A stretch of 45,020 nt of DNA from a virus: the IMG/VR virus record IMGVR_UViG_3300020160_001711, positions 1 through 45,020 of that record; one strand, 5' to 3'. The position numbers were made by a program, and so were the translations under genes. Positions 1,037-38,348 of the stretch are shown one piece after another. The notes below the pieces were generated by a model. It was not told where the DNA came from. It was given only the letters and a program-made list of their open reading frames with translations, and made no database searches. The number at the start of each line of letters is the position of its first letter. Position 1 is the first letter of the stretch.

Positions 1037-1525
1037 TTAATAAGAACCTAAATCTACCAGTCTAGCTTTAAAAAAAGGAAATGTCATTGTTAATGTGGAT
1101 ACACTTTTAGCTGGATTCTTTTTAAACCGATCTGTTTCACTGTTGTCGAATTTAATTTCTACATTTTTTGTAAACAACTCACTATCATCTGGCACCACCA
1201 CATCGATGACTTTTGCCCCAGTTTCCACATTGGAGAAACTATAACCAACGTCTCCGTTCTGGTTATAACCCTTTAAATTTTTTTCCCAATTAAAAATATC
1301 CAAGTACATATAATATGGTCTGTGAGAAACGGTTTTGATTAAAGGACTGAATTTCACAACAAGTTTATCTCCATTGCCACGATTAACATACACGCTATCA
1401 AACTTATATTTATTTTTAAGTTGTTGTAAATTAAATATATAATTACCAACCCCTTCAGTATCCAAGAGTTCTTTCTTTAATTTATCATACTTACCTTCAG
1501 TTATAAACTCTTTAAAGCTTTTCAT
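1037..1525 (-). CDS. Paralogue A of a tandem pair; capsid-targeting-like N-terminus
   Basis: 162 residues from ATG 1525. A TTG two codons further upstream is less likely because TATAAATATT ends just before the ATG. The protein begins MKSFKEFITEGKYDKLKKEL. The first ten residues match the T4 internal-protein targeting pattern (a short amphipathic start ending I-T-E before Gly), the type of site cut by a gp21-like prohead protease. The remainder looks mostly beta: VIDVVVPDDSE and a final STLTMTFPF strand. Both have clear counterparts in the next gene upstream (VIDVIIPED, LTMKFPF), so the two are tandem duplicates. No enzyme motif was recognised. By analogy it is a candidate head-packaged protein; its function is unknown. 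Confidence 0.8.
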   Translation of the reverse strand: MKSFKEFITEGKYDKLKKELLDTEGVGNYIFNLQQLKNKYKFDSVYVNRGNGDKLVVKFSPLIKTVSHRPYYMYLDIFNWEKNLKGYNQNGDVGYSFSNVETGAKVIDVVVPDDSELFTKNVEIKFDNSETDRFKKNPAKSVSTLTMTFPFFKARLVDLGSY

Positions 1526-1527
1526 TG

Positions 1528-1983
1528 TCAATATTTATAAAACCTATTTCCTATAAATGGAAACTTCATTGTGAGTATTGGGAAGTAAGGATTTTCCGCT
1601 ACCTTGGTATTATCCAGTTTTATTGTGATTTTGTTTTTAGCTATATCTTCTGGTATAATGACATCAATGACTTCTGCTTCATCATAGAATAATTTAATCC
1701 CTTGATCCATTGATATTCTTCTTTCCTCATTCTGATCCCACATTTCAATAGTATTCTTATCCAATACCATCATAATATCCATCCTACCTCCAAAGGTTAC
1801 TGCATTCTTATAGTGAAATTTGAATTCATAATGGATATAATCACTGGTTCTTACCCCCTCCAATGTTCTACCCACAGATTGCTTTATGAAATTTAACCCC
1901 TCTTGGATGGATTCAGAGTTCATCAATTCCTTCTTCAATGCATCGTACTTACCCTCTGTGATATATTGTTTAAAGCTTTTCAT
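1528..1983 (-). CDS. Paralogue B of a tandem pair; capsid-targeting-like N-terminus
   Basis: 151 residues. It begins MKSFKQYITEGKYDALKKEL, nearly the same as its neighbour 1037-1525, with I-T-E before Gly as the likely maturation site. The centre (ESIQEGLNFIKQSVGRTLEG) is longer than in the paralogue. The two share the VIDVIIPED and ILTMKFPF blocks near the C-terminus. An AAAGGA Shine-Dalgarno-like sequence lies about 7 bases before the ATG, unlike the late-promoter-type start of paralogue A. The stop lies two bases before the paralogue's ATG, so the two are likely co-translated. The stop of the upstream gene (1984) abuts this start. Function unknown; a candidate internal head protein. Confidence 0.8.
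   Translation of the reverse strand: MKSFKQYITEGKYDALKKELMNSESIQEGLNFIKQSVGRTLEGVRTSDYIHYEFKFHYKNAVTFGGRMDIMMVLDKNTIEMWDQNEERRISMDQGIKLFYDEAEVIDVIIPEDIAKNKITIKLDNTKVAENPYFPILTMKFPFIGNRFYKY
1530..1539 (-). promoter_or_regulatory. T4-late-like promoter motif before 1037-1525
   Basis: Reads TATAAATATT on the minus strand, containing the full TATAAATA. It ends 4 bases before the ATG at 1525 and overlaps the stop codon of the upstream gene. Confidence 0.6.
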
Positions 1984-2535
1984 TTAGTATCCTTTCATTT
2001 CCCCATTGTCATCGAAATAATCCTCATAATCGAAAGACGTGTCTATGTGGAAAGCATCATGTGTTATACTGTGTTCCTTGTTCTTCTTCCACGTATATCC
2101 TCCACCTGATTCGTAAAACGATGGATGCAATGCGATTTCCATCATTGCATCTATTTCATGATTAACTATATAAAAATCGGTATGGCATTGCCACTCTTTG
2201 TAAAAGGTAAAACCATACCAGTTTTTCAACTCTTCTGGTTTGAGACTCTCGAACGTTGATGCCATCTCTTCTGCAACTTTGTCACAGATGCCACCACTCC
2301 CATATTCCTCAGACTGACCATCATCGTCCTGATCCCAACCATCGAAAACAGATATCGCAGCTTCTGCAAGTTGTGGGAATATAGACTCTAAGAAAGCGAT
2401 AACCTTTTTAATCTGTTCATCTCGAAGCATATCCAATTTTTCAAACTCCTCTATCTGATCATCATCAAAATTACTTTGTTGTCTGCTTAACTTGCTATAC
2501 AAGCCTTCTAGAATTATGTTATCATCGTCTCTCAT
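1984..2535 (-). CDS. Candidate Cys/His hydrolase-like phage protein with N-terminal (I)LE signature
   Basis: 183 residues, acidic. It starts MRDDDNIILEGLYSKL, a second flavour of targeting-like N-terminus shared with the 719-residue protein at 4378-6537; I-L-E before Gly is a possible prohead-protease site. Near residue 84 there is GICDKVAEEM, then a His (118) and N-H (125-126), then YESGGGYTWK at 141-150. A Cys at a helix start followed by His and a GGGY-type motif recalls papain- or NlpC-like phage proteins; this is an inference from pattern only. A GGAG sequence precedes the ATG by about 12 bases. It sits between the tandem pair and 2539-3216 with gaps of only a few bases, so it is probably in one transcript with them. 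Confidence 0.75.
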   Translation of the reverse strand: MRDDDNIILEGLYSKLSRQQSNFDDDQIEEFEKLDMLRDEQIKKVIAFLESIFPQLAEAAISVFDGWDQDDDGQSEEYGSGGICDKVAEEMASTFESLKPEELKNWYGFTFYKEWQCHTDFYIVNHEIDAMMEIALHPSFYESGGGYTWKKNKEHSITHDAFHIDTSFDYEDYFDDNGEMKGY

Positions 2536-2538
2536 TTT

Positions 2539-3216
2539 TTACGCTATCTCCACAAGTTCGTATACTGGATGTTTTTTCTTTCCGCTGTATATGTAACATT
2601 CTCCGTAAATGCTACTGGATAAATTAACTGAACCAAAACTTGTTGGTCTTAATCTTGGCTCTTTCTTTGTCATCTCTGGATAATTCTTCAACATCACAGG
2701 GTTTTTAAATTCAACCCTCATGGCATACACATGATCGTTTCCGCTTTCAATTGACACTATTGGATGCGGTGAGATCCATACACCTTCCCCTTTTCTTGTT
2801 TTTAATCTTATGTTCTTCTTTTTATTCTCCTCATCCACCCATGCCCATCTGAAGTTTCTTGGGTTTAATAGATTAATGTAAACTTTTTTGCCAGTTGCTT
2901 TAACGTTTCCATCTATCTCGTTCTCCACGTTTAACTTCGGACCTTTGAATGTATCAACATAACCCCTTTCATACATCTTACCGTTTAAAATTTCCCCGCT
3001 ATGGATGTCGTAATATTTTCCACCCGCTGTGTATGAGGCATCCACATCTTCTCTTTCCAAGTACTTATTAATGAAAGGGCTATCTGGTTTTCTATATTTT
3101 CCTCCGCTCCGTTGAGATCTTTCAATATCTTGTTCTCCAGAAACAGAAACCAACCAACGCTCTGGTGCAACAATGACATCAGCCATTTCTAAAAGATATT
3201 GTTTGAAAGTTATCAC
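2539..3216 (-). CDS. Unknown protein with capsid-targeting-like N-terminus (GTG start)
   Basis: 225 residues. It starts at GTG 3216 with MITFKQYLLEMADV; the L-L-E before Met fits the gp21-type cleavage pattern. The start is supported by GTAAATAAT 7 bases upstream. The body has a beta-rich centre (KKVYINLLNPRNF, GEGVWISPHP, YAMRVEFKNPVML) and a C-terminal SSSIYGECYIY. The VYINLLNP...VWISP arrangement is faintly like phage ADP-ribosyltransferase-type proteins, and T4 Alt is a head-packaged enzyme of that kind. No R-S-E catalytic triad can be assigned with confidence, so function is left open. It is the first gene of the minus-strand group 520-3216 and is divergent from 3253-3492. Confidence 0.75.
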   Translation of the reverse strand: MITFKQYLLEMADVIVAPERWLVSVSGEQDIERSQRSGGKYRKPDSPFINKYLEREDVDASYTAGGKYYDIHSGEILNGKMYERGYVDTFKGPKLNVENEIDGNVKATGKKVYINLLNPRNFRWAWVDEENKKKNIRLKTRKGEGVWISPHPIVSIESGNDHVYAMRVEFKNPVMLKNYPEMTKKEPRLRPTSFGSVNLSSSIYGECYIYSGKKKHPVYELVEIA

Positions 3217-3223
3217 TTTATAT

Positions 3224-3232
3224 ATTATTTAC
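3224..3232 (-). promoter_or_regulatory. T4-late-like promoter motif before 2539-3216
   Basis: Reads GTAAATAAT on the minus strand, 7 bases before the GTG start. It is back-to-back with a plus-strand AATAAATAT at 3237-3245, so one 36-base gap may hold two divergent late promoters. Confidence 0.55.
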
Positions 3233-3236
3233 TTTT

Positions 3237-3245
3237 AATAAATAT
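3237..3245 (+). promoter_or_regulatory. T4-late-like promoter motif before 3253-3492
   Basis: Reads AATAAATAT on the plus strand, 7 bases before ATG 3253. It is a weaker match than most of the others. Confidence 0.4.
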
Positions 3246-3252
3246 ATTTGTA

Positions 3253-3492
3253 ATGAAATTCGATAATTTATACGAAAGCATTCTCAAAGGTCTATCCCAT
3301 GGAATGGATTTGGAAGATATTGCAAAGAAACATAATGTGGATGTAAAGCATCTGGAACAGCAATTGGAGATGGGTCTAGAGGTTGAGAAGGAACACGATG
3401 ATGATTTGACTATAAGAAAAACCATTGCCATGGATCATCTTGTGGAAGATCCAGACTATTATACTAAATTAAAAACCATACACAAGGATTGA
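3253..3492 (+). CDS. DUF5661-type small protein
   Basis: 79 residues from ATG 3253. A longer frame begins upstream, but that extension is hydrophobic and would start inside the divergent gene. The C-terminal half matches the pattern I recall for DUF5661: GLEVEKEHDDD, then KTIAMDHLVEDPDYYTKL. The middle (MDLEDIAKKHNVDVKHLEQQL) reads like a small helix-turn-helix-type segment that discriminates a partner or DNA. The N-terminus MKFDNLYESILKG has L-Y-E before Ser, another possible prohead-protease site. The biochemical role of this family is not known to me. It ends with TGA, showing that the standard code applies. Confidence 0.8.
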   Translation: MKFDNLYESILKGLSHGMDLEDIAKKHNVDVKHLEQQLEMGLEVEKEHDDDLTIRKTIAMDHLVEDPDYYTKLKTIHKD

Positions 3493-3558
3493 TTATAGCA
3501 AATTCTCTTTTAAATACTTCTTGAAGAAAGTAAAATATGTGCGATAATAAAAAAGAGA

Positions 3559-4071
3559 ATGTACTATCGAAACTCTTTAGACAAATACGGGGAATGTTCA
3601 GCAAGAGGGGAAAGTGCGGAAAATGCGTTCATTGCTGTTGTAAAAAGAAAAAAGATAAGGTATCGTGACGCTACAATCAAGGAGCAATTCGATCACATCG
3701 ATTATATTCTGGAAATAGATGGTAGAGAAATTCTTATGGATGTAAAGGCCAGAAAGAAAGTTTCACGATATGATAATAAGACTGCTGATGACAAAGTATG
3801 GGTGGAATTTAAAAACGTGTCTGGTAACAATGGTTGGCTTCATGGCTCCTCAGATTTCATAGTCTTTGAAAGAAATGAGGATTATGTATTGGTCCCTAGA
3901 AAAAAATTGTTGGAATATTGTGATAACAATATAGATAAAACAAATATAGTATCTGAAGCGAGCAATGCTTTATATAAATTATACACAAGGTATGGGAGGA
4001 AGGATATTATATCCATGATTAAAATGGAAGATTTGTTTTTAAATATGAAACCTGTTGTCTGGAAAAAATAA
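3559..4071 (+). CDS. PD-(D/E)XK-superfamily nuclease-like protein
   Basis: 170 residues. The nuclease signature is EQFDHIDYIL (Asp45, Asp48) followed after a beta turn by ILMDVKARKK (Asp61, Lys63), the usual D...D-x-K core. A Glu in GESAEN (about residue 20) could complete the site. Then comes WVEFKNVSGNNGWLHGSSDF, a block I associate with a family of phage-encoded nuclease-like proteins that share the VWVE...GWL...D pattern. The C-terminus is helical. No late-promoter motif precedes it; only AAGAGA lies just upstream of the ATG. It ends inside a strong bidirectional terminator. Possible roles are host DNA degradation or processing of phage DNA; neither is shown by sequence. Confidence 0.65.
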   Translation: MYYRNSLDKYGECSARGESAENAFIAVVKRKKIRYRDATIKEQFDHIDYILEIDGREILMDVKARKKVSRYDNKTADDKVWVEFKNVSGNNGWLHGSSDFIVFERNEDYVLVPRKKLLEYCDNNIDKTNIVSEASNALYKLYTRYGRKDIISMIKMEDLFLNMKPVVWKK

Positions 4072-4100
4072 AACCCTTGGTATTACCCAAGGGTTTTATT
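4067..4100. terminator. Bidirectional intrinsic terminator
   Basis: A perfect 14-bp inverted repeat (4067-4080 with 4087-4100) with a 6-base loop and A/T-rich flanks. It overlaps the TAA of 3559-4071 and lies just downstream of the convergent 4114-4320, so it can end both transcripts. Confidence 0.85.
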
Positions 4101-4113
4101 GAATCACCAAGCG

Positions 4114-4320
4114 TTATTCCTTTTCAGAAACAAACTTGTATAGTTCTTCCGCTCTTGCTATAATATTAGCAGTCTTTGGCGTGAGTGCATCAATTCCTTG
4201 TGCATCATCCAAAAAACCGTCTTTATTACGAATGGTATCCAACTTGTGATGATACTTATTATATTCATCGCTATGGGCCATTTGAAGAACTTCCAAACGA
4301 ATTTCGTATGCGTTTTTCAT
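4114..4320 (-). CDS. Small conserved T4-like phage protein
   Basis: 68 residues, highly charged and helical. It begins MKNAYEIRLEVLQMAHSDEY, a start I associate with short proteins of unknown function in several T4-like phages. The C-terminus is TANIIARAEELYKFVSEKE, predicted helical. AAAGGAGA at 4332-4339 is a good Shine-Dalgarno sequence about 11 bases from the ATG. There is no TAAATA motif, so it may belong to an earlier expression class than its neighbours. Upstream, TTGACT and TTGACA hexamers occur near 4365-4375, but I see no well-spaced -10. It is transcribed toward the terminator at 4067-4100. Role unknown. Confidence 0.75.
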   Translation of the reverse strand: MKNAYEIRLEVLQMAHSDEYNKYHHKLDTIRNKDGFLDDAQGIDALTPKTANIIARAEELYKFVSEKE

Positions 4321-4331
4321 GTATGTGTGTG

Positions 4332-4339
4332 TCTCCTTT
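4332..4339 (-). promoter_or_regulatory. Shine-Dalgarno sequence of 4114-4320
   Basis: AAAGGAGA on the minus strand, about 11 bases before the ATG. It is one of the few strong ribosome binding sites here, in contrast to the late-type starts. Confidence 0.65.
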
Positions 4340-4377
4340 CTGAATATATTGAGACGTTACATGTCAAAAGTCAATGA

Positions 4378-6537
4378 TTAAAAATCTTCAGATTTACCCT
4401 TTTTTCTTTTAATGAAATCTTTGAATGTCATTTGTCCACCCAACTTATTAAGTAAGAAGTTTCTAGAAAGTTCTTCATTGTAATTCGGAAACTCAAATTT
4501 CGGATACCTTCTTAAATAATCACTAACCTTATCCATCACCCTACCATCTATTATTTCCTTATTTGTTTTATAATCAAGTTGTTTGTCTAAATCTTTTTGA
4601 TAAGCATTATCATTTTCATAATCATCTGCTTTAAAGATATCTCTTCTCCAAAAACTCAATATTCCTAATTCTTGGTTATCTTTTTTAGAATACATTGGTA
4701 TATTGGCATCAGAATAATCACCAACATCTATTTTCTTAAAATGATTCAATACTTTTATTATGTCATCTTCTTTGATATAAGTATTATCGGTATCATATTT
4801 TACAGCGGCTTTAATATTTGGTATCAATATTTGATCTTCAAATTCTTTGTAAGCGTCCAATAACTTATTTCTATTTTTTATAATAGTTTCAATATCTTGA
4901 TATAAACGATCATAATTATAGGATTCACGATCATCATATTCCAAATCTATTTTTATGTTTATAAATGAAGCAGACATCTTACCATCTCCAACAACATCAA
5001 AAAGTTGAGAAACATTTAAATATTCGTATAGAAAATATTTAAAGAAATCCATAGCGTACTGCGCATATGGGATCTCATTCCTTTTTTCCTCTGTCAAATT
5101 AGAATGTTTGGTATAATTCATAGAGAAAAAATCTTGCCTTACAACGTTATAATATTTCTCAGTAAGATTTGGAAAAGATATAATTTTAAGTTTGACATCA
5201 ATATTTTTATTATCTTCAGCACTAATAATGCTATTGTCAAAATCTTCCTTCACTTTAAAATAAAAATCGGTATATTCATCTGATATCCAACCTTGTCTCA
5301 ACATTGCCATTTTAAATTTTTCTATAAAATCTTCCTTGTCAAATCTTTGATCAGTTGCTCGATAGGAATCACATTCACCTTCAAATGAACGTAAACCATT
5401 ATCATCCATTGCGAAATAATTATCATTAGATTCAATACCGCAGCTTATAAAAAAACTTTCTTTATCGTTGTATGAAATATCTATTCTAAAACCATTACCC
5501 CCCGAATATATGTCGAAATCTGATAATAGATCATTAAATGCTTCAAGATCTTTAGTATTATAAAATTCTCCAGCATTTTCTTTTATTATCTCTTTCATGT
5601 TCGGTATATCTGGAAACTCGTTATAATTCAATTTGATATAAAAAGAATAATCCGCTCTCACATAACTCTCTTCACCGTAATCCTCGTCTATGTCTATTCC
5701 AAAATATTCGAAAGAATATTCATCTAATACTTTTTTGAAATCTTTATATGATATATTGTTATCTGATATTTTTTCCAATATCTCATCGCTGTTTGGTATT
5801 TGCACAGCATGTTCTTCAACATACTCTCTCAAATCTTTATCGGTAAAATCATGCGATGAATCATATTCAAATTTAAAAATAAAACATTCTTTTTCTATCA
5901 ATATATCAGCTATATATTTGTGGTATTCATCTTTAGGTTTAGAATTTCTTTTACCTTTACATTGATACCAAATACCCTCATCTGGACTAATAGCCATTGT
6001 TATAAATGGTTCTATAGTTTGTGTTTCTGGAAAATACTTTCTCAAGGAGTATAAAGTATCGGCTTTATTTGTTGTACCACAATGACCCATCGCATCGCTT
6101 TCACTACAGTCTCTTGTAGATTCTAAATCAACCCAATAAAACCCATCAGAATATTTTTTTATAATTGTATTTTTTTCAACACCTTCTAGATTTTTTATTT
6201 CTATATTTTTGTGGTATTCATCTTGAGCTTCAACGGCTTGATCCCAATTGTATGATTTCAAATTAATGTTTGGTACGTTCCTAACCCAATCCAATATACC
6301 TTGCATTTGAGTTAAAAGGTTTATAGTTATCCAATTGATTTTATTAGTAGATGCTTGAAAGGCACCCATATTTTTTATTTTATCAGCAAACCATATTGAA
6401 TATTTTTCACTAAAATTGTGTAAGTAATCCGCGACATCTTGTGGAATTCCGAATTTGATTATTTTATCCCTATGATCTTTTTCTAGGATCAAACCTAAAT
6501 ATAAGTTCTCCAGAATTAAACTGTCGTTATCTTTCAT
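4378..6537 (-). CDS. Large protein with GHC/GK-N motif (PcfJ-reminiscent) and targeting-like N-terminus
   Basis: 719 residues, acidic, soluble. It starts MKDNDSLILENLYLGL, close to the N-terminus of 1984-2535. I-L-E before Asn and a second I-L-E at 17-19 are candidate prohead-protease sites. Around residues 143-201 it carries DCSESDAMGHCGTTN, then YSLRKYF, then a beta segment and YQCKGKRNSKPKDEYHKYI. This C-G...LR...KGK.N order recalls the PcfJ-type domain (HCVG...R...Q.KG.N). The similarity is a pattern match, and the biochemistry of that domain is not established to my knowledge. The remaining 500 residues are rich in Asp, Glu and Tyr, with no motif I can name. It has its own late-like promoter (6541-6553) right after a terminator, so it is a single-gene unit. 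Confidence 0.75.
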   Translation of the reverse strand: MKDNDSLILENLYLGLILEKDHRDKIIKFGIPQDVADYLHNFSEKYSIWFADKIKNMGAFQASTNKINWITINLLTQMQGILDWVRNVPNINLKSYNWDQAVEAQDEYHKNIEIKNLEGVEKNTIIKKYSDGFYWVDLESTRDCSESDAMGHCGTTNKADTLYSLRKYFPETQTIEPFITMAISPDEGIWYQCKGKRNSKPKDEYHKYIADILIEKECFIFKFEYDSSHDFTDKDLREYVEEHAVQIPNSDEILEKISDNNISYKDFKKVLDEYSFEYFGIDIDEDYGEESYVRADYSFYIKLNYNEFPDIPNMKEIIKENAGEFYNTKDLEAFNDLLSDFDIYSGGNGFRIDISYNDKESFFISCGIESNDNYFAMDDNGLRSFEGECDSYRATDQRFDKEDFIEKFKMAMLRQGWISDEYTDFYFKVKEDFDNSIISAEDNKNIDVKLKIISFPNLTEKYYNVVRQDFFSMNYTKHSNLTEEKRNEIPYAQYAMDFFKYFLYEYLNVSQLFDVVGDGKMSASFINIKIDLEYDDRESYNYDRLYQDIETIIKNRNKLLDAYKEFEDQILIPNIKAAVKYDTDNTYIKEDDIIKVLNHFKKIDVGDYSDANIPMYSKKDNQELGILSFWRRDIFKADDYENDNAYQKDLDKQLDYKTNKEIIDGRVMDKVSDYLRRYPKFEFPNYNEELSRNFLLNKLGGQMTFKDFIKRKKGKSEDF

Positions 6538-6540
6538 GTT

Positions 6541-6553
6541 ATTATTTATTTAG
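6541..6553 (-). promoter_or_regulatory. T4-late-like promoter motif before 4378-6537
   Basis: Reads CTAAATAAATAAT on the minus strand, 3 bases before the ATG at 6537. It lies directly downstream of the hairpin at 6566-6588, so transcription is insulated from the gene upstream. Confidence 0.6.
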
Positions 6554-6565
6554 AATAAAAAAAAT

Positions 6566-6588
6566 GTGAGGTTTTAATAAAACCTCAC
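6566..6588 (-). terminator. Intrinsic terminator after 6640-7260
   Basis: A perfect 10-bp stem (6566-6575 with 6579-6588) with a 3-base loop, followed on the minus strand by a run of eight T. This is a strong rho-independent terminator for the GAF-like gene. Confidence 0.85.
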
Positions 6589-6639
6589 TTACAATCCATC
6601 CTGCAATATAACATATTATATAAGTTGCCATAATTTAAA

Positions 6640-7260
6640 TTAAACCTCCAAGTATCCAGCCATATTCGAAGCATTTATTATCAGTTTATTAATTTGATCA
6701 TCGACTAAAACAATATCATTAATAACACCTTCCATGCAAAAAAATCCCACAAAATTACCAGAAATATCTTTTATGGAAACGCAAATGAAACTAGAAACGC
6801 CTCGATTCTCCCAAAAATTTTGCATGGCATACGACATTGGATCATTCGTCTTTTTTACATCATTGGTATAATAATAACCACACTCCATTAATTTTTTAAA
6901 AAATAAGGAGAATATGGAAGTTGGGATGTTTTGAGTATGCACGGCTTCAGAGGCCACACCTTGATTCACAACTTCATATGTTGTTGAAAATCTCTGAAAA
7001 CTTTTACCAGAATATGTTTTACCGCCATTATGAAATTCTGCAATCCATGCCCTATCGCAGTTATACTTTTCCATTAAAGATTTTAACTTTGTGGTTATAA
7101 GTTCATCAGCTTTTATAGCACCATTTTGAGCCAATGTATGTTTCTTTTTATCTTGTCTTTTCTTCAAAAAAAATTGCAATATTTGTAATGAAAGTGGTGA
7201 AATTAATCCTGTAATTAAAGCGACTATTATTAAAGTGAAGTGTTGAGCGTCAAAATCCAT
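6640..7260 (-). CDS. Membrane-anchored GAF-like domain protein
   Basis: 206 residues. Residues about 9-32 are a transmembrane segment (LIIVALITGLISPLSLQILQF) followed by a positive patch KKRQDKKKH, so the C-terminal domain should face the cytoplasm. The domain from about 50 to 206 has the features of a GAF-type sensor fold: NCDRAWIAEFHNGGKTYSGKSF (FHNGG at 76-80), STTYEVVNQGVA, and VGFFCMEGVIND near the end. I recall similar GAF-like proteins in other T4-like phages; their ligand is unknown. An AATAAATAT near 7276-7284, about 15 bases before the ATG, may be its promoter. It is followed by its own terminator, so it is a single-gene unit. It could sense a host metabolite at the inner membrane; that is inference. 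Confidence 0.75.
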   Translation of the reverse strand: MDFDAQHFTLIIVALITGLISPLSLQILQFFLKKRQDKKKHTLAQNGAIKADELITTKLKSLMEKYNCDRAWIAEFHNGGKTYSGKSFQRFSTTYEVVNQGVASEAVHTQNIPTSIFSLFFKKLMECGYYYTNDVKKTNDPMSYAMQNFWENRGVSSFICVSIKDISGNFVGFFCMEGVINDIVLVDDQINKLIINASNMAGYLEV

Positions 7261-7336
7261 ATCTCGATGTTTTATATATTTATTTTATTTCTCATTACAA
7301 ACAATGTTACTATCAAATATTACTTGACTTTTTTTA

Positions 7337-7346
7337 TATAAATATT
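7337..7346 (+). promoter_or_regulatory. T4-late-like promoter motif before 7350-7703
   Basis: TATAAATATT ends 3 bases before the ATG at 7350 and contains the full TATAAATA. Confidence 0.65.
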
Positions 7347-7349
7347 ATT

Positions 7350-7703
7350 ATGAAGATGGTTAAAAATATGAATCCTAAAGAAATGGATAAAAAAAAATTA
7401 AGATATATCTTCAGAAGAGTTTTAACGAGGATAAAGGAAAAACCTGATGGTTTTTTCAAATTTAGAAAAATGAGAGGTACTAGAGGTTTGTGGTGGGGCG
7501 GTGATCTCATAGAAATAGATCATAGAAAAGAAATCATACCAACAATTGTACATGAGGTTCTACACGATTTATATGAAAGTAAAAATGAAAAATGGATACG
7601 CCAAGTTGAATCTAAAATTTCTCAAATATTAAAGCCGAAAGATATTTTCCTTTTAATGGAAGGCGTCTTTTCAAAAATGAATATTGATAAAAATGAAAAA
7701 TAA
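7350..7703 (+). CDS. Small zincin-like HExxH protein
   Basis: 117 residues. HEVLHDLYE at 68-76 contains the HExxH zinc-binding motif of metallopeptidases, followed by EKWIRQVESKI, in which a downstream Glu could be the third ligand. The N-terminal 45 residues are strongly basic (KKKLRYIFRRVLTRIKEK). A short beta part, GLWWGGDLIEIDHRKEIIPTIVHEV, precedes the active-site helix, as in small SprT-like or minimal metallopeptidase proteins. The ATG at 7350 is preferred over internal Met codons because the promoter motif abuts it. It is followed 14 bases later by 7718-8584 on the same strand. Proteolysis is an inference, since only the motif is seen. Confidence 0.7.
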   Translation: MKMVKNMNPKEMDKKKLRYIFRRVLTRIKEKPDGFFKFRKMRGTRGLWWGGDLIEIDHRKEIIPTIVHEVLHDLYESKNEKWIRQVESKISQILKPKDIFLLMEGVFSKMNIDKNEK

Positions 7704-7704
7704 A

Positions 7705-7712
7705 TATAAATA
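7705..7712 (+). promoter_or_regulatory. T4-late promoter, exact TATAAATA, before 7718-8584
   Basis: Exactly TATAAATA, ending 5 bases before the ATG at 7718. The preceding gene's TAA (7701-7703) lies immediately upstream. Confidence 0.7.
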
Positions 7713-7717
7713 AAAAT

Positions 7718-8584
7718 ATGAGTTTAACAACTTTTCGTAAATTTTTGGAAGTTAAAGATGTTTTAATAGTCGAAGCTAATAAAGAGGACATTTATCAGAA
7801 ATACTATAAACAAGCTATAGATGAGGAATCATTTAATAAAATAGTTGCGATGTTTCAAAATAATAGTGAGGTTAGATGGATTGTGCAAGCTTTTAGAGAA
7901 TTAAATAGCGACGATGAAAAAAATAGATTTTTAAACGAAGATATGCCTAAGTTGAAAGATTATTTTGAAACATTGAATTTACTCAAGAGAAAGAATAATC
8001 CAGAAGCTAAAGCTTTGAATTTGTTTTCAATTAAAAGCATACCACAATTGGCGAAGGCTGTGAATTCTATTTTAGGTTCTACTGATACTGAAGAATCTTC
8101 CCCTGCAAGTGGCGGTGGTGGCGGTGGATGGAAAATGATGTTTGTGGGCAAAGGTGGTAAACCTTTAAACATGGAAAAAATATACGAGAACTCAGAATAT
8201 ATTGTAGTTAGACCAATGGATCAAGATGCTCTAGGAGAAGCGGCTAGAGGTTCCGAATGGTGTGTAAGTTATGATAAGACTAATTGTATGATCGATAACT
8301 ATGCTCCAGAAAAAAATCAAAGAGGAAATGCTAATAGATTATATCTTATAAGAAATAAACAGAACAAAAAGGATTCATTTTTATTCCACTTTATATCAAA
8401 TCAAATGATGGATTACGAAGATCAAAACATATCTATAGATGATATAATCAATTCCAAACCTTCCTTTAAAGAAGCTATGCTAAGTCTTTTAAACAATCAA
8501 GAAATAAAGGAAGAGATAATGAACAGTTCGGATGCTTCTTTAAATTATTTAATGTTGTTAGATTCAATGGAGGATGGAGAATAA
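7718..8584 (+). CDS. Protein with WC motif domain and targeting-like N-terminus
   Basis: 288 residues. The start, MSLTTFRKFLEVKDVLIVEA, has I-V-E before Ala as the best prohead-protease-type site. An alpha-helical half (20-120) is followed by a Ser/Gly linker with six Gly in a row (132-137). A second domain from about 138 holds GEAARGSEWCVSYDKT (WC at 181-182) and RLYLIRNKQNKKDSFLFHF, then a C-terminal acidic helix. The motif order (GS.WC...., lyli.nk, D) is one I associate with phage proteins of unknown activity, and it parallels the GHC motif of 4378-6537. Its last codons overlap the ribosome binding site of the next gene. Enzymatic function cannot be stated. Confidence 0.75.
   Translation: MSLTTFRKFLEVKDVLIVEANKEDIYQKYYKQAIDEESFNKIVAMFQNNSEVRWIVQAFRELNSDDEKNRFLNEDMPKLKDYFETLNLLKRKNNPEAKALNLFSIKSIPQLAKAVNSILGSTDTEESSPASGGGGGGWKMMFVGKGGKPLNMEKIYENSEYIVVRPMDQDALGEAARGSEWCVSYDKTNCMIDNYAPEKNQRGNANRLYLIRNKQNKKDSFLFHFISNQMMDYEDQNISIDDIINSKPSFKEAMLSLLNNQEIKEEIMNSSDASLNYLMLLDSMEDGE
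8569..8579 (+). promoter_or_regulatory. Shine-Dalgarno sequence deciding the start of 8586-9770
   Basis: GGAGGATGGAG within the end of the upstream gene. It abuts an ATG at 8574 with no spacing but is correctly spaced for the ATG at 8586, so the latter is taken as the start. Confidence 0.65.
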
Positions 8585-8585
8585 T

Positions 8586-9770
8586 ATGTTTGACAAAGAT
8601 CAAAAAAGTTTATACGAAGCTTATAAAACAATTTTCGAGGCACCTGTAACGGCACCAGATGAAACGGAAGTAGAAGAACCACAAATTGATGCTCCACCAG
8701 AAAGAGAAAGAGCACCTAGACGTTCTCCTTTCAGACCACCTAGACCAGAAGTTCAACCTGAACCTCAAAATACATATCTTAAAGAAGATTATGAAGATGA
8801 GGCTGAACCTTCTACTAGAAACTGGTTTGCTTCAAAACCTTTAGATGGTCATCCTATTTTAAGCAAATTTGGACCGTCTTTGGCTAAAAAATCCTTTGAT
8901 TATAGTAAGCAAAGACTTCAAAATTTAAATAGTGAATATACTGATTCTTTTAGATTGTTTAGAGAAATAATGCAAATAGAATCTAGGCATAAAGAACAAT
9001 TAAATGAATTGGCTAAAAACATCGTATCTCAAGTTTATGGTATAGATGAATCCCAATTAGAAGTTGAAGATAATGTTCAAGTCAATAAAACAGAGGAACA
9101 GTCCGAATGGAGTGAAAAAGGTGCTGTTATTGACGATAGAGTGAAGAAACATATTCACATGAGAGCCACAATGAACATGTTAAGTCATGGTGCCGCTGTT
9201 CATCAAATGTTCACATTACACCATATGGTCAGAGAGGCTTTAGACGATATCGATCCTAACCTCGTTGGTCTTTATGATAAATTCAGTGTTGGTGCAACAC
9301 ACATGTATTGGTTTCAAAATATTGAAAGGGCGGCTGAACAATTAAAAGGGTCTGCTGTCGGTTCCACTAAAGTAGAATATCAAGATGGTGAAGACGGTGA
9401 AGAAGTTCCAGTTGTAAAAGCTGCTGCTATTTGTTTTCCAGTATTAGTTCAAGAATTAAGTAAGGGTGTAATGCAAATGCTATCACATCACCACATTGGA
9501 AGACTGGACAAAGCTACTCTCCAAAAAGTATTGGCAGAAGCTGATAAAATTCAATTAGAACCTTATTTTATAATGGTTGGACCAGCTTTATGGAGAACTA
9601 CACTTGAAGTTTCGAAGAAATTAAACGCTAATTTATCAGAAATTATCTCAGCCATAGCTTCACATGAGCCAGACGAAGTTCATAATTTATTCGATAAAAT
9701 GGAAACAAATCCAAGTGCTGCCGAAAATATTATAAGAAATTGGCACCAAGAAATGTACAACGAAGAGTAA
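8586..9770 (+). CDS. Large Pro/Arg-linker protein, probable head-associated, function unknown
   Basis: 394 residues from ATG 8586. It begins MFDKDQKSLYEAYKTIFEAP; L-Y-E before Ala and I-F-E before Ala are both gp21-type sites. Then follows a disordered, acidic and Pro/Arg-rich linker to about residue 85 (APPERERAPRRSPFRPPRP). The rest is mostly helical. It includes the His- and Met-rich block HIHMRATMNMLSHGAAVHQMF, then HHMVREALDDIDPNLVGLYDKFSVGATHMYW, and later MLSHHHIGRLDK. No enzyme motif is recognised. It is the last gene of the plus block 7350-9770, and its TAA touches the stop codon of the convergent prohead protease with no gap. The targeting-like start and this neighbourhood suggest a protein incorporated into the prohead; a scaffold-like role is possible but not shown. 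Confidence 0.75.
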   Translation: MFDKDQKSLYEAYKTIFEAPVTAPDETEVEEPQIDAPPERERAPRRSPFRPPRPEVQPEPQNTYLKEDYEDEAEPSTRNWFASKPLDGHPILSKFGPSLAKKSFDYSKQRLQNLNSEYTDSFRLFREIMQIESRHKEQLNELAKNIVSQVYGIDESQLEVEDNVQVNKTEEQSEWSEKGAVIDDRVKKHIHMRATMNMLSHGAAVHQMFTLHHMVREALDDIDPNLVGLYDKFSVGATHMYWFQNIERAAEQLKGSAVGSTKVEYQDGEDGEEVPVVKAAAICFPVLVQELSKGVMQMLSHHHIGRLDKATLQKVLAEADKIQLEPYFIMVGPALWRTTLEVSKKLNANLSEIISAIASHEPDEVHNLFDKMETNPSAAENIIRNWHQEMYNEE

Positions 9771-10445
9771 TTACATTACTTTAGAAATCTTATCGAAAAA
9801 TTCTAAAATTTGATCCTTTAAATAATCCTCGACATTTTTTCTAGGAAGCTTAGATACTTTATCTTGAAATCTGTCATATGATTCTTCAAATGATCCATCT
9901 TCGGACAGAACATACTCCTTAGATTCCAATATACCATTTACAAATGCTTTAGGACAAGACGGATCGGCAACACAATCGATAGCCACCAATCTGAAATCAC
10001 TAACTCTATTTGTGCCATTATATTGCTCTGTCAATTTACCTAAAGCTCTAGTTGACATACCAATCTTCACACCATCATCAATCAAAGCTTGAACAATTAA
10101 ACCACATGGGGTGGAAAGAAGTTTGGATTTACCAATGTAAACGTTACCTTCATTTCTTAAATCAGTTACCAAGTGACAAGCTCTCTCCAAAGACACATCA
10201 GGACTAGAAGGATGATTTAATTCACCCATAGACCTTTTAGCATCGATCATTTCGTTAGTGTAACGACGAACTTCTCGGTGCATCTCTTCTCTATCATAGA
10301 TTCTTTTATTTTTATTGACTTCCTCATACATCATATAAGGTCCAGTAACGTAATAAGATGGTTTGGATTTATTATTCGTTTCCTCTTTGATATATTCGAA
10401 TTGATCTTCAGAAAACGATTGGTCCACTAATAATTTGAATGACAT
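9771..10445 (-). CDS. 21: Prohead core protease (T4 gp21-type)
   Basis: 224 residues against about 212 in T4. Conserved landmarks of T4-type prohead proteases are present: GELNHPSSPDVSLERACHLV (His at 78), KSKLLSTPCGLIVQAL, then GVKIGMSTRALGKL with the probable nucleophile Ser131, and VAIDCVADPSCPKAFVNGI. In T4 this serine protease cleaves scaffold and internal proteins after (L/I)xE, then itself. Several proteins in this window begin with such sites. It is the last gene of a 27-kb minus-strand block, downstream of gp4-like and gp13-like genes, whereas in T4 gene 21 sits beside the scaffold and capsid genes; those are not here. A doubled TAAATAAT motif precedes its ATG. Confidence 0.88.
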   Translation of the reverse strand: MSFKLLVDQSFSEDQFEYIKEETNNKSKPSYYVTGPYMMYEEVNKNKRIYDREEMHREVRRYTNEMIDAKRSMGELNHPSSPDVSLERACHLVTDLRNEGNVYIGKSKLLSTPCGLIVQALIDDGVKIGMSTRALGKLTEQYNGTNRVSDFRLVAIDCVADPSCPKAFVNGILESKEYVLSEDGSFEESYDRFQDKVSKLPRKNVEDYLKDQILEFFDKISKVM

Positions 10446-22584: not shown

Positions 22585-24675
22585 TCAATCTAAAATATAA
22601 AATGATATATCATCAATGTAAGCTTCAGTACCTTCATTATCAGAATATGGAAAATGTTGGAAAAAGTCTATCAACACTTTATCCACACTAGGTTCAACAT
22701 ACCAAGTTAAAATCTGATAAAAATGATGTTTCAAAATATCGTTTACATATACATATCCGTATTTCTCAACATTATCATAAAAATAAGTAATTTTATCCCA
22801 AACATTTATACCACTATTCCAATTTTTACTATAAACTTCATCAGTTCTTTCACAAATATCACCTTTAATAAAACTGCCATAATTGAGAGAACTCGTATTA
22901 AAATCCCATGTTAACGTATAAGTGTTATGTTGAGGGTGAACACCCCAATTTGAATGATTATAATAATCAAAACCTACACTAAAAATAGTAGGATATGATT
23001 TTTGTAAAGTATTTTTCTTCAATGCATAAAATTCAATAATAAATCCATTCTTATCATTAAAAAATTCTGAAGATAAACCAAATGTTAAAGATATGTTTTT
23101 ATTGGCAAAAGAATTTGCATAATATGAATAACCGCCACTGTAACTTTCATTGTTCACCACATTACCGTAATTTCTTATAATTAAAACTTCGTTTGTAGAT
23201 GCAGTTCCAGCATTTTGTGCAACCACACCAAAGTCAAAACCAGTACCCCAATACAACGTTTTATTGGTGGGTGGTGTGTTGTAAAAAACCGATGGTGGCA
23301 CATTTTGTGGGCAAGGTATAGTTGGGGTTGGTGTTGGAGTTGGAGTTTGTGTTGTAGTAACTGTAGGCGAAGGTGTTAAATACATATAAGTATGTTGAAC
23401 ATTTACATCATTTAAAATATCTTCAACCACATCATCTCCCCAAGATATATCATACGATCCTGTATTGTATTTTATATTAAATTCTAAAATTGTTTTACCA
23501 AAAGGATTGTCTATATCCCAAATATCCCAAAGAATGTATGGGGAAATATAAGTATGTTGAACATTTACATCATTTAAAATATCTTCAACCGCACCATCCC
23601 CCCAAGATATATCATACGATCCTGTATTGTATTTTATATAAAAATTTGAAATTGTTTTACCATAAGGATCGTCTATATCCCAAATATCCCAAAAAAGAGA
23701 AGGTTCGGGTGTCGGTGTTGGTGTTGAAGTGGATGTATTCGTTTGTGTTGGTGTTGGTGTTGGAGTTGGACATCTGCTTTCTAAAGGAGTTCTAGTTGGA
23801 CTTCTACTTGGAGTTATAGTGTTCGTAACTGTTTTGGTTGGCGTATTTGTTGGTGTTTTTGTTACTGTGGGTGTTTGTGTTCTAGTAGGTGTTTTTGTGG
23901 GGGTTCTTGTTACTGTAGGTGTTTGTGTTTTAGTTGGAGTTTGAGTAGGTGTGGGAGTATATGTTGGAGTTATTGAAGGTGTGGGAGTTTGTGTTGGGCA
24001 AATTGGAAAATTTTGTATAGCTGACAATGAGAACGATTGTTCGGATATACCTAATATCGGAGAACCCCCATACCCAGTATTAAAATAATAAAAAGTATAA
24101 ACATTATTATCAGAAGCTGATAATGTAACACTGTTTTTTATGAAAATTTCATTTTGACTGGATGTTATTTCATTCGTATTGGTGAATGTTATTTTGCAAT
24201 TATTAAAATTATTTAAATCGTAAACATTACTGACCTGTAATCCATTTATCCCCTTTAAGTAAACATTAAAGTTTGAAACGGTATTATTTAAAATAATATA
24301 ATTTCCATAATAAATTCCAGTATCTACTAAGTCGTAATTGTTAACAACGCAATAGTACTTTACAGGAAACGCCGAAACTACAAACGATTGAGTGTATGTA
24401 CCATATACATTTGTCCCAGATAGTTTGACGTAATATACACCATCATCGTTAAAAGTGTGTATAATGTTTTCAGAAGTATAATTAACATCATAACCACCAC
24501 TGACATTCCAAGCCCAAGAATCAACTGCTAAAATATTTCTATTAAAACCGCTTAATGATACGGTAAGCGGAGCAAATCCTTTTAATGTTTTATAAATTTG
24601 AGTATTATTAAATGTGCTAGACGGTGGAAATTCTCCATTATTAATCAAAGGAAAATATGTCTTCAAATTAATCAT
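22585..24675 (-). CDS. Adhesin with PKD domain, Thr/Pro-rich stalk and tandem 54-residue repeat
   Basis: 696 residues. Residues about 30-110 are PKD-like: [23 protein letters not shown], then THTF-type [17 protein letters not shown]. From about 225 to 320 it is almost purely Thr and Pro ([15 protein letters not shown]), a stiff or glycosylatable stalk. Then come two near-identical 54-residue units ([39 protein letters not shown]) and a second short Thr/Pro stretch. The C-terminal 230 residues are a single beta-rich domain, perhaps carbohydrate binding, ending [13 protein letters not shown]. The start has a consensus Shine-Dalgarno and overlaps the upstream gene by four bases. A bacteriophage fibre or spike that projects binding domains on a stalk is the simplest reading. 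Confidence 0.8.
23319..23383 (-). repeat. Second Thr/Pro-coding simple repeat
   Basis: A shorter low-complexity stretch coding for [19 protein letters not shown], downstream in the protein from the two 54-residue units, separating them from the C-terminal domain. Confidence 0.75.
23384..23545 (-). repeat. 162-bp tandem repeat, copy 2
   Basis: The nucleotide sequence is nearly identical to 23546-23707; for example the block TATGTTGAACATTTACATCA occurs in both, exactly 162 bases apart. It encodes 54 residues. Few differences and a whole number of codons indicate a recent in-frame duplication. Confidence 0.85.
23546..23707 (-). repeat. 162-bp tandem repeat, copy 1
   Basis: First unit in the direction of translation. 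It starts at the WDIWDID block just after the Thr/Pro stalk and differs from copy 2 at a few residues (for example DDPYGK against DNPFGK). Confidence 0.85.
23709..23999 (-). repeat. Thr/Pro-coding simple repeat
   Basis: Low-complexity DNA with GTTGG, GTGTT and GGTGT units on the plus strand, coding for about 95 residues of alternating Thr-Pro with Gln, Lys, Ser and Val. It also creates Gly/Val-rich open frames on the opposite strand that are not genes. Confidence 0.85.
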
Positions 24676-26650: not shown

Positions 26651-29600
26651 TTATGTCGTAAATGGATTTTTATAATCCAAATAAGCTGTTAAATATACAT
26701 TTTCAGTTAATGATAAATCTTTAACATCTTCATAATTTATATAAATCCCAGTGGAATTTTGATATATATTAGATTGAGCATATGGCGCTCCCAATTCCGA
26801 ATTTGATATAATTAAACTATCATCCACCAAAACAAATCCATCAGAACCCGCTTCAACTTGAATTGAACTATAACCCATATCTATACCATCACCAGAAGAG
26901 TATTGATACATTAAAGGAACATTCGCATCATAATACAATATTCCAGAACCATTAATAAATTGCGGATTTATATCAACATTAGTATGTTTTATATACAATC
27001 CAGACGCCTCTCTAGTTATAGTATCCAAAGACAAACCTCCAGTGCTTCCAAAAGCGTTAGGTTCTGGAGTTGAATTTAATAATACTTTATTAGGACCAAC
27101 TTTATTAAGCCAAAGTTCAACTTGACCAAAGGGTAAGTATACCGCAGTTAGTGATACGTTTCCAGTGATAACAAATGTTAAAGTATTATTACCAGCAATA
27201 CCTTTAATATTTGGATCATCAGCACATAAGGCTATAAATGTGCTACCCTCAAAAGTATTGTCGGCTTTTATAGTAACTTCTTTACCAGATAAAAATTCGT
27301 ACTCGCAAATATTCAAACTGGAAGGATTAAATGGTTCACAATCTAAACCAATTGGCTCCACAGAGTAAACTCTACCAACTCCTCCTCCAGCAGAATATGT
27401 AACAGTCACAGTATATGCCAAATAATTAAAATAAGCTACAAAGTTATAATTATCATCTAAAATGAAATTACATTTTGGATTGGTGGAATTATTACACGGA
27501 CCACCAATCCATCTATTAAATTGGTAATATTCGTTGGTTGGTTTAGCAGTTAAACTTAAAAAAGTTTGTTCGGATAGAGACTTATATGTGTTCGAGGTGG
27601 TTATATTTAATTCAGAATCATCGTAAACCCATTCTATTATACCTTGCGCTGCTTTATTCACTAAAATACTTTTAGTTTTAGGGAAAGCTAAAACCTCGAA
27701 TTCACCACCTTCTGTATTGATTATTAAAGAATCGTTATCAAATGGTTGACTCTCAACTCCTAAATTTAAATCATAGTATATAATTTCCCTATATAACGAC
27801 TGTACATCAATATCTCCCCACATTATAAATGTGCAAACTCTATTTCCATCATAGCAAGGCACACCATCGAATTTATTAAATAAGTAACCAAAAGGTGCTG
27901 GAGATGCTGATATGGTAACATATGTTCCTAAGAAATAATCAGTTGCGCATTTTCCAGTACAATTCAATTGACCATCCAATGTTATTATGCTACCTAAAGT
28001 TGAATCCGCTTTTAAAGTAACTAAAGGTAATAATTCAAAATTGGCTATTAGTTTCTTATCATCATTTAAATATAAAACACAATCATTTGTAGTACCATTA
28101 CATTCCGTATCCCCCAACCATGATGAAAATCTACTATTAGATGCCGCTGAAGCAATCAGAGTTATTGTGGAATTTGCCGAATATAAATATTCGCAATTAT
28201 CTCCACAATAAATGCATGGAGGGTCTGTAAACACATCACCTTTACCAGATCCAACCTTCTCTATTTTTAATCTTTTATATATGCCAGATAAGTTATTTGA
28301 TAAAAATCCAGAAAATTTAACATTTTGAGTAGTGTTGACATCTATAAAAACAACTTCATCGTAAGGGTATGTTGGTCTTGTAACATTTACATAAAATTCT
28401 ATACCATCTACGAAAAAATTAAAAATATTTTTTGTTTCATTATATGATGTCAAATACGTAGTTGTGGTTGATTGTGACAATTCATCTGTGTGGGTTACTA
28501 ATAAATTGTTTTGAACTTCTTTAACATTAAAAAATTCTTTACCTACAAAAATATTAGTGTTATCATAAGATTCCCAATCAAAGTGTACAACATAATTTCC
28601 AACTTGGTTTATTTCTAAAGTTTCAACATTTGAAGCAAATGCGTAATTTACACTATATGGTAGCGTGTCAACTATATTTAAAGAATCGTCATCTCTAACT
28701 CCTATATAACCCGATTTATTAGATATAGCTCTGACATAATATGTCGCGGAAGGATTTGCGTAATTATTGTCTAAAAAATAATAAAATGGTTTTAACAATA
28801 ACGGACCTTCTGATACAAAAGTGTTGTCTTCTGGTTTATAATATAATTTTTCGTTTACTATAAAGGGTATGGAATTTAAATTTCTAGAAAAATAACTGAA
28901 ATTATATTCGTTTAAAAATGAATTTTTTCTAAAAGATCCTCCAGAATACTCCACTAAATTTATTTCTGGCACATCTCCATAAGGGCTGGAAAGGGAATAT
29001 ACATTGGTTAGAGTTTTATTATTAGGATATATTTTGCTATAATTTAAACTATCCAGATTTGAAGCATATATCTCTGGACAAATATATTTGTAATTTGATG
29101 CTGATAATGAATTTTCTAAAGTTTTTATAAAAACTAAAAATATTTTTTTATTTTTTTCATCATACCATGGGTTTATAAATGTATCTAGAAATTTATTAAA
29201 TCCTACTTTTTTATTATAAAACGGTTTAGTACTCGCGTTTTGAAATTCGTTATTTTCTATATCATACAAATATGAATCACTAATAACATAATTTTCAGTT
29301 TCTATAACTATTACGTTATTGATTACAAATAGTTTTAAAACTTTATCATTTATTTCATCCACCACGAAGTCTGGATATTTAAAAAATATTTTAGAAAATG
29401 CTGTATTAATATCATTTACAGTATTATAAAAATTATTTCTTACAAATATTTTACCAGTCTTAGTGTTTTTCTTTTCATATATTGAAGAATTTTCTACTTT
29501 TTTATTTGAAAAAACTGTAGATGATCCGTTAATCAGACCCCCATCGTATAAATCTCCTGAAATATTTTTCGTTTCAGTGTTAAGTTTTTTGTATAAACCA

Positions 29601-37730: not shown

Positions 37731-38348
37731 ATGGGAAAATTTATAAAATTATACGAATCAGCTATTCAAAGATTTACTAGAGGTGGTCTATTAGTAGGGG
37801 ATCTAGTTAAATTTAAAGATGGATATGGGAGTGATGATTTTTTTAATAATCAAAGCTCCAATTACATAGAAAAAATTAAAAGTTTTATAAGTAGTGGTTT
37901 AAATATACGAGTTTCTAGTATTAAACCTGTAAGACCTTCTTATCAGCCAGGTAATGTATACAATGAATCTAGTGAATTTTTAGTAGATATTGTTTTGGAA
38001 AAAGCACCAGGTCTTTATTATGAATTCATAACAGTGCCGATGAGAATTTTAGAACACTTCGATACTGGAGTAAATCTAGCCCCAATACCAGACGCTTTGA
38101 GATATGATGATAACTCTTCAACTGATATTGAACAATTAGGATCTATCCGTAAAGGTGCTGAAACCCTCCTAGATCCATACAGGCAGACGAGAACTACCGA
38201 TTTTGGAGATGGTAAAGACTCAAAATCTTCAACAGAGTTGCCGACAAAAAATACAAAAATACCATCCAATGTATCAATAGATGCTAAATCCCCATCTATA
38301 TATTCGGCTCAAAAAGATTATACTAAAAATTATCTTCCTAAAAAATAA
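37731..38348 (+). CDS. Unknown protein, targeting-like N-terminus, disordered C-terminus
   Basis: 205 residues. It begins MGKFIKLYESAIQRF, with L-Y-E before Ser as a possible prohead-protease site, like 3253-3492 and 8586-9770. Residues 15-120 look folded and beta-rich (GGLLVGDLVKFKDGYG, SSEFLVDIVLEKAPGLYYEFITVPMRILEHF). From about 145 the chain is Ser, Thr, Lys and Asp-rich and probably disordered (RTTDFGDGKDSKSSTEL). No motif of known function. Its stop lies one base from the stop of the convergent clamp-loader gene. A late-type promoter precedes it. Presence in the head or tail is inferred from these traits only. Confidence 0.7.
   Translation: MGKFIKLYESAIQRFTRGGLLVGDLVKFKDGYGSDDFFNNQSSNYIEKIKSFISSGLNIRVSSIKPVRPSYQPGNVYNESSEFLVDIVLEKAPGLYYEFITVPMRILEHFDTGVNLAPIPDALRYDDNSSTDIEQLGSIRKGAETLLDPYRQTRTTDFGDGKDSKSSTELPTKNTKIPSNVSIDAKSPSIYSAQKDYTKNYLPKK

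Follow-up and report, generated by a model that had tools for sequence, protein, structure and literature searches.

In a 45,020-base stretch of viral DNA (positions 1 to 45,020 of IMG/VR record IMGVR_UViG_3300020160_001711; hereafter the window), genes beside a gp21-type prohead protease encode proteins that begin with one of two short N-terminal leaders. The window is a piece of a T4-like myovirus, with baseplate gp25, tail and adhesin genes in addition to the protease. Judged from its residues, the type-1 leader (M-x-[ST]-F-K-x-[YF]-[IL]-x-E) is the capsid-targeting sequence (CTS) of T4, and type 2 is a second leader, interchangeable with it on homologous bodies. Very probably, proteins carrying either leader – below called tagged proteins, or cargo – would be guided by it into the prohead core, cut by gp21 after (L/I)-x-E and ejected with the DNA.

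Two leader profiles were built from a degenerate-DNA scan of IMG/VR, the matches being translated and one leader being kept per distinct body (64 of type 1 and 49 of type 2). Profiles were trained solely on other IMG/VR contigs, and the window was scored at every start against a null of 12,487 internal positions of its own proteins. The best null position reached 3.9 with the type-1 profile and -3.4 with the type-2 profile: g02, g03 and g05 (type 1) and g04, g09 and g13 (type 2) each exceed all 12,487 null positions (scores in the table). These strong leaders belong to six of the 13 genes, on both strands, that lie left of gp21 in the adjoining 10 kb, as against none of the 23 genes elsewhere in the window (Fisher p=0.0009). 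A preliminary description of the window had quoted nine such N-termini, all of which were found at the places and on the strands it gave; six of the nine are strong members by the held-out profiles, whereas the leaders of g12, g06 and g30 are not significant alone by the same profiles and those members are weak. It had also counted eight proteins in the cluster. The N-termini are present, but g02 and g03 are probably paralogous – by eye they look alike past the leader – which makes the set a little less varied than that count implies.

The T4 internal proteins and their CTS were reportedly described by Mullaney and Black in 1996; IPI, IPII and IPIII are internal proteins whose leader has been established experimentally. 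When the type-1 profile, which contains no T4 sequences, was run blind on the 2028 candidate starts of the T4 genome, these three proteins took ranks 2 to 4. Conserved type-1 positions (F4, K5, Y/F7, I/L8 and E10, read from contigs that the type-1 pattern had not retrieved) coincide with the residues that mutagenesis of T4 IPIII assigned to targeting (4 and 7) and to processing (8 and 10) (PMC9026906). Alt, gp67, gp68 and gp21 of T4 went unrecognised by the type-1 profile, which therefore describes the leader of the internal proteins only. Rank 1 in T4 fell to the hypothetical protein gp61.1 (MKTFKEFIKED, 54 residues, L312:18966-19130), which outscores IPI-IPIII and is a candidate for an overlooked packaged T4 protein.

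The type-2 leader follows the pattern M[KR][NSD][KD]D[QSN]-[IV][IL]LE-x-[LI]Y-...-[IL]xE, with M[KR][NS]KDQILLExxY as the core form alongside variants, and is found on up to eleven different proteins within single contigs. Nine type-2 leaders of contig L148 are 82% identical in DNA, their flanks only 29-45%, and 37% of the identical residues are encoded by differing codons, about as codon usage predicts. DNA identity that stops at the leader edges, together with varied codons, indicates selection on the peptide rather than a copied DNA repeat; on the flank drop and the near-random synonymous codons, such a repeat was rejected as the source of the shared leaders. More broadly, the shared N-termini might be left over from duplicated genes or from a DNA element that was copied, without present function, and the likeness of g02 and g03 past the leader is what such an origin would leave behind. 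Set against the edges and codons just described, the 134 unrelated body families that carry leaders (below) and the exchange of leaders between homologues, this origin is scarcely credible.

That exchange was observed in four families, in which one contig has type 1 on a body and another contig has type 2 on its homologue: an ADP-ribosyltransferase (ART)-like family (bodies 76% identical), the MAYPVSF family (89%), an ASCH-like family (78%) and GP88 (72%). The pairwise alignments begin just behind the leader, and in the MAYPVSF family the leader is placed just before the apparent ancestral start methionine. Only these four exchanges, each checked by pairwise alignment, are counted; among further two-leader clusters, cluster 2 was discounted, fused DUF5661 domains explaining it, and another is doubtful. 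Types 1 and 2 also occur next to each other, both in the window and in further contigs. The two leader flavours of the preliminary description are thus found swapped on homologous bodies. Leader kinds seem to differ by lineage. The cultured Flavobacterium phage immuto (host Flavobacterium sp. LMO8), which has a T4-like block of head genes and a DUF5661 protein, encodes a homologue of a further type-2 cargo, and there the start is different again. In that phage (L082:12295-35469) four unrelated proteins share the leader MKKSQLRxIIKEEL and several carry MxNFDLKKFLVENKLTxNSxLLKE, both near head genes.

Across the fetched contigs, 380 open reading frames (ORFs) in 134 body families pass the profiles, compared with 3 decoys whose N-termini were shuffled; 322 ORFs and 117 families are retained under strict cut-offs. 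A chance origin of the leaders is rejected by this count and by the held-out test in the window. A search without profiles in other gp21 relatives found similar N-termini in 116 pairs of proteins from different families, as opposed to 0 in the internal control; the MxKDxxLIFEAY leader, of the g13 type, is among them. Each of the five tagged contigs that reach 168 kb, near-complete genomes, encodes the S77 protease; by comparison, it is present in two of nine contigs above 150 kb that hold g04 relatives, none of the nine having a significant leader. For the largest tagged family (PHROG 14802, virion structural protein), a homologue in phage PA5oct was identified in the virion by electrospray ionisation tandem mass spectrometry (ESI-MS/MS), as was gp257, the best-scoring ORF of PA5oct. 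In the window's protease, H78 and S131 – the catalytic-type His and Ser – are invariant relative to T4 gp21, and we propose it as the leader peptidase. Blind recovery of the T4 proteins, the conserved residues, the leader exchange, the co-occurrence with the protease and the PA5oct virion homologue all support the preliminary description's principal claim: that capsid-targeting-like leaders beside a gp21-type protease mark a head-packaged cargo set.

The cargo itself turns over quickly. In sister contigs L003-L013, whose gp21 is 79-82% identical to that of the window, a different tagged set occupies the same neighbourhood: ART-like proteins, a methyltransferase (E=1.2e-8), an ASCH-like protein and GP88 (8e-31), with g12 and g13 absent from the corresponding place. 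Pfam searches over 126 family representatives returned GNAT acetyltransferases, ART-PolyVal, PARP, PolyA polymerase/tRNA nucleotidyltransferase and Zeta toxin, as well as glucosaminidase, GH19, DPBB, HD and several DUFs. PADLOC, run on the 126 cargo families, gave scattered and weak matches only, and hence no known defence targets are claimed. That the window cargo, with folds mostly lacking assignment, is directed against host defences or metabolism, as the preliminary description suggested, is a guess.

Computation directly shows the leaders and how significant they are, the identity of type 1 with the T4 CTS, the exchange of leaders between homologous bodies, conservation at the amino-acid level and the presence of the protease; from these we infer packaging, cutting, ejection and a function in the host. 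The 1-10 kb stretch would be the cargo island of a T4-like myovirus, its proteins made late in infection with an N-terminal leader of 10-20 residues. The leader would dock each protein on the growing scaffold core, leading to its enclosure in the prohead; the gp21-type protease would cut after the (L/I)-x-E glutamate, leaving the mature protein free within the packaged DNA; and on the next infection this protein would leave the head together with the genome and act in the new host before phage gene expression.

Several points weigh against this scheme. For the window phage and its clade, packaging, cutting and ejection are predictions from computation, and type 2 is read as a capsid leader from its exchange with type 1 and from co-occurrence, with no T4 counterpart. 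The window gp21 itself reads LLVD in place of LLVE; the protease was seen in only 10 of 32 tagged contigs, most of which are fragments; and in PA5oct the profile adds little past the top matches. The loose cut-off admits some false positives, such as a UvsX-like recombinase. Finally, the unsupervised search also returned N-termini of tail fibres (MADVTIS...), so other causes of sharing exist and a shared N-terminus alone is not proof; as an explanation of the leaders themselves, sharing of the tail-fibre type was rejected, the tail-fibre N-termini being a separate group.

An alternative is that type-1 proteins are true T4-style internal proteins, while type 2 is some other assembly signal – for docking to the core, the neck or another part of the virion – that is neither cut nor followed by injection. 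No T4 protein scores on the type-2 profile, type-2 starts are more variable, often with a second [IL]xE site 8-9 residues on, and tail-fibre proteins share N-termini too. Yet the type-2 leader likewise terminates in an (L/I)xE site, it adjoins type 1 in the window and in other contigs, and in four cargo families the leader on homologous bodies is of type 1 or of type 2 depending on the phage; we consider a separate role for type 2 unlikely. It is more improbable still that tagged proteins are scaffold or core parts for head building, degraded later like T4 gp22, gp67 and gp68 and never delivered to a host. The bodies are unrelated, turn over between close relatives and include ART, GNAT, methyltransferase, Zeta toxin, tRNA nucleotidyltransferase and muralytic domains, unlike a conserved scaffold; g12 and g13 are absent from this place in L003-L013. 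This holds even though core proteins of T4 are also gp21 substrates (PMC9026906) and g13, of 394 residues, directly adjoins gp21.

Some leaders lie inside proteins. An ART-like family of 555-860 residues carries an internal TFKKYLMLKE that all six proteins share without change from F to E and that precedes two alternative C-terminal domains, one of which also exists as a gene of its own, headed by the N-terminal leader MITFRKYILLNEWTRE... A repeat region (INLPxL...) accompanies the internal type-1 leader in large ART-like proteins at L003:12998-17196, L086:4537-9032, L087:7432-9396 and L088:6377-8560. Relatives of g09 in L083 and L084 run on past MNFEQYFLEKYKRMSAG into DUF5661 and so end in a leader plus DUF5661, a unit that is also fused to an unrelated protein of 658 residues in L189; the window g09 ends inside that leader, its C-terminus holding a remnant (MTFKDFIKRK..., 4381-4431). 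A general scan for internal leaders found 10, compared with 6 in shuffled sequence, which is not significant: internal leaders are therefore claimed only where alignments show them, and polyprotein processing is offered as a hypothesis.

The polyvalent proteins encoded by phages and conjugative elements combine two to fifteen disparate domains per polypeptide, and their injection together with the DNA has been predicted (Iyer et al. 2017, PMC5512222). The present cargo overlaps with them in repertoire (ART, muralytic, GNAT and other enzymes), and the g04 domain occurs inside such giants; unlike them, it places its activities on separate, individually addressed proteins, few sister proteins joining two units through an internal leader. 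In the window, cargo proteins have at most one recognisable domain each and so fall outside the polyvalent definition. The exchangeable leaders may form a general address code with which T4-like phages load fast-changing single-domain enzymes – polyvalent proteins in distributed form – some of them fused as polyproteins in which the internal leader would be both address and gp21 cutting site. To this wider proposal we give an even chance.

The g04 domain illustrates the overlap. Thirty-seven viral relatives of g04 share invariant W67, G82, C84, H118, Y141, E142, G144, W149 and K151, and the Cys/His domain is marked by W67, GG-C84, H118, an acidic residue near 135, Y141-E142 and W149. In some cases the domain follows a type-2 leader, in others it is a small protein without a tag, and in others again it is embedded in proteins as long as 2058 residues; in two of these large proteins it lies beside ART-PolyVal, 2'-5' RNA ligase/Acb1-like, PolyA_pol or SprT-like domains, which is a polyvalent-protein architecture. 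The AlphaFold2 model of g04 has a mean predicted local distance difference test score (pLDDT) of 91.7 and gave no Foldseek match in PDB or BFVD at E below 0.3; neither the g04 profile nor the ART profile found anything useful when searched against PDB sequences. The model possibly represents an unseen fold. That g04 is a hydrolase is a guess from the invariant C84/H118/acidic pattern, with no structural match to a solved papain/NlpC-like or other hydrolase.

The T4 internal proteins are long established, and the likeness to IPI, IPII and IPIII is close: a 10-residue leader, the same determinants at 4, 7, 8 and 10, and a gp21-type protease. T4 has three small basic internal proteins and Alt, however, whereas here a single island contains six or more tagged proteins, whose leaders are of two exchangeable types, and the cargo is mostly larger, probably enzymatic and without detectable T4 relatives. 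Alt is a packaged and injected ADP-ribosyltransferase, and sister islands beside gp21 likewise hold ART-like cargo (PARP/ART-PolyVal matches, with a conserved YHRT...GI...YGRGLY motif); the 7-residue propeptide of Alt is nevertheless missed by the type-1 profile (rank 1020), and the window has no recognisable ART. Ejection proteins of SPN3US and phiKZ-like giant phages are also numerous head cargo cut after Glu by a related protease (PMC5694885), but most of their propeptides exceed 100 residues and the site is (S/A)-x-E, as opposed to 10-20 residues and (L/I)-x-E here. It has been suggested before that the CTS lets T4-like phages carry proteins of varied kinds (PMC9026906). What is new is a second leader exchangeable with the first, a set that is large and enzymatic in character and turns over fast beside gp21, the overlap with polyvalent domains, and the fused units. 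A full-text literature search for the motif strings matched no paper, a weak negative since sequence logos are images. If the reading given here is correct, a motif of 10-20 residues suffices to list the proteins that T4-like phages carry into their hosts, for thousands of uncultured phages, and the question of what phages inject besides DNA, and against what, becomes a search. More than 100 cargo families, many without known function, would then be candidate counter-defence or take-over proteins, and the two exchangeable leaders would supply a second loading signal for packing foreign proteins in phage heads.

Table. Tagged proteins of the window and the adjoining protease (positions are those of the window).
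Gene	Coordinates	Strand	Length (residues)	Features	Evidence
g02	1037..1525	-	162	type-1 leader MKSFKEFITE at 1496-1525	type-1 profile score 29.1
g03	1528..1983	-	151	type-1 leader MKSFKQYITE at 1954-1983	type-1 profile score 30.4
g04	1984..2535	-	183	type-2 leader MRDDDNIILE(GLY) at 2497-2535; C-terminal Cys/His domain	type-2 profile score 7.3
g05	2539..3216	-	225	GTG start at 3216; type-1 leader MITFKQYLLE at 3187-3216	type-1 profile score 20.5
g06	3253..3492	+	79	DUF5661; weak leader MKFDNLYE at 3253-3276	Pfam DUF5661 E=5.7e-18
g09	4378..6537	-	719	DCSESDAMGHCG domain; type-2 leader MKDNDSLILENLY and second site LILE at 6481-6537	type-2 profile score 11.1
g12	7718..8584	+	288	EWC motif; irregular type-1-like leader MSLTTFRKFLEVKDVLIVE at 7718-7774; weak member	score -9.6, p=0.02
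g13	8586..9770	+	394	type-2-variant leader MFDKDQKSLYEAYKTIFE at 8586-8639	type-2 profile score 0.7
gp21	9771..10445	-	224	gp21-type prohead core serine protease (Peptidase S77)	PF03420 E=2.7e-30
g30	37731..38348	+	205	MGKFIKLYE start; weak member outside cluster	orthologues in G004/G006 start alike; profile not significant

Individual members of the set differ in how far they can be placed. Residues 1-51 of g02 weakly match a PHROG 'internal head protein' (E=0.073), the sole such match among the window cargo. The leader of g05 abuts an internal Met11 (MADVIV...) that resembles an ancestral start methionine; no relatives of g05 were found in IMG/VR, and none of g12 in IMG/VR, INPHARED or GTDB contigs. 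The only window cargo to match Pfam is g06 (65.5 bits, above the gathering score of 27). Its DUF5661 orthologue in sister contig G004 bears a full type-1 leader, MLSFKEYILLE, and MKFDxLV, comparable with the start of g06, is common to two unrelated proteins of G010. A DUF5661 segment also lies within a protein annotated DUF2213 in Vibrio phage vB_VpaM_VPs20 (H34, 28234-28401), again linking DUF5661 with virion proteins. The AlphaFold2 model of g09, built from 3 sequences, reached a pLDDT of 37 and left its GHC domain without fold assignment. The 'KDxxLIFEAY' leader of the g13 type is also carried by 4 unrelated families in G009, G010 and L014.

Homopolymer C and G runs at positions 1-15 and 380-400 lie at the contig end; the cargo island is probably cut off there, and the set may be larger. 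Among the untagged neighbours, g11 (7350-7703) has a metallopeptidase-like VHEVLHDL motif and is retained beside gp21 in relatives. Farther along, g23 (22585-24675) contains a long repeat and is probably a tail or adhesin stalk.

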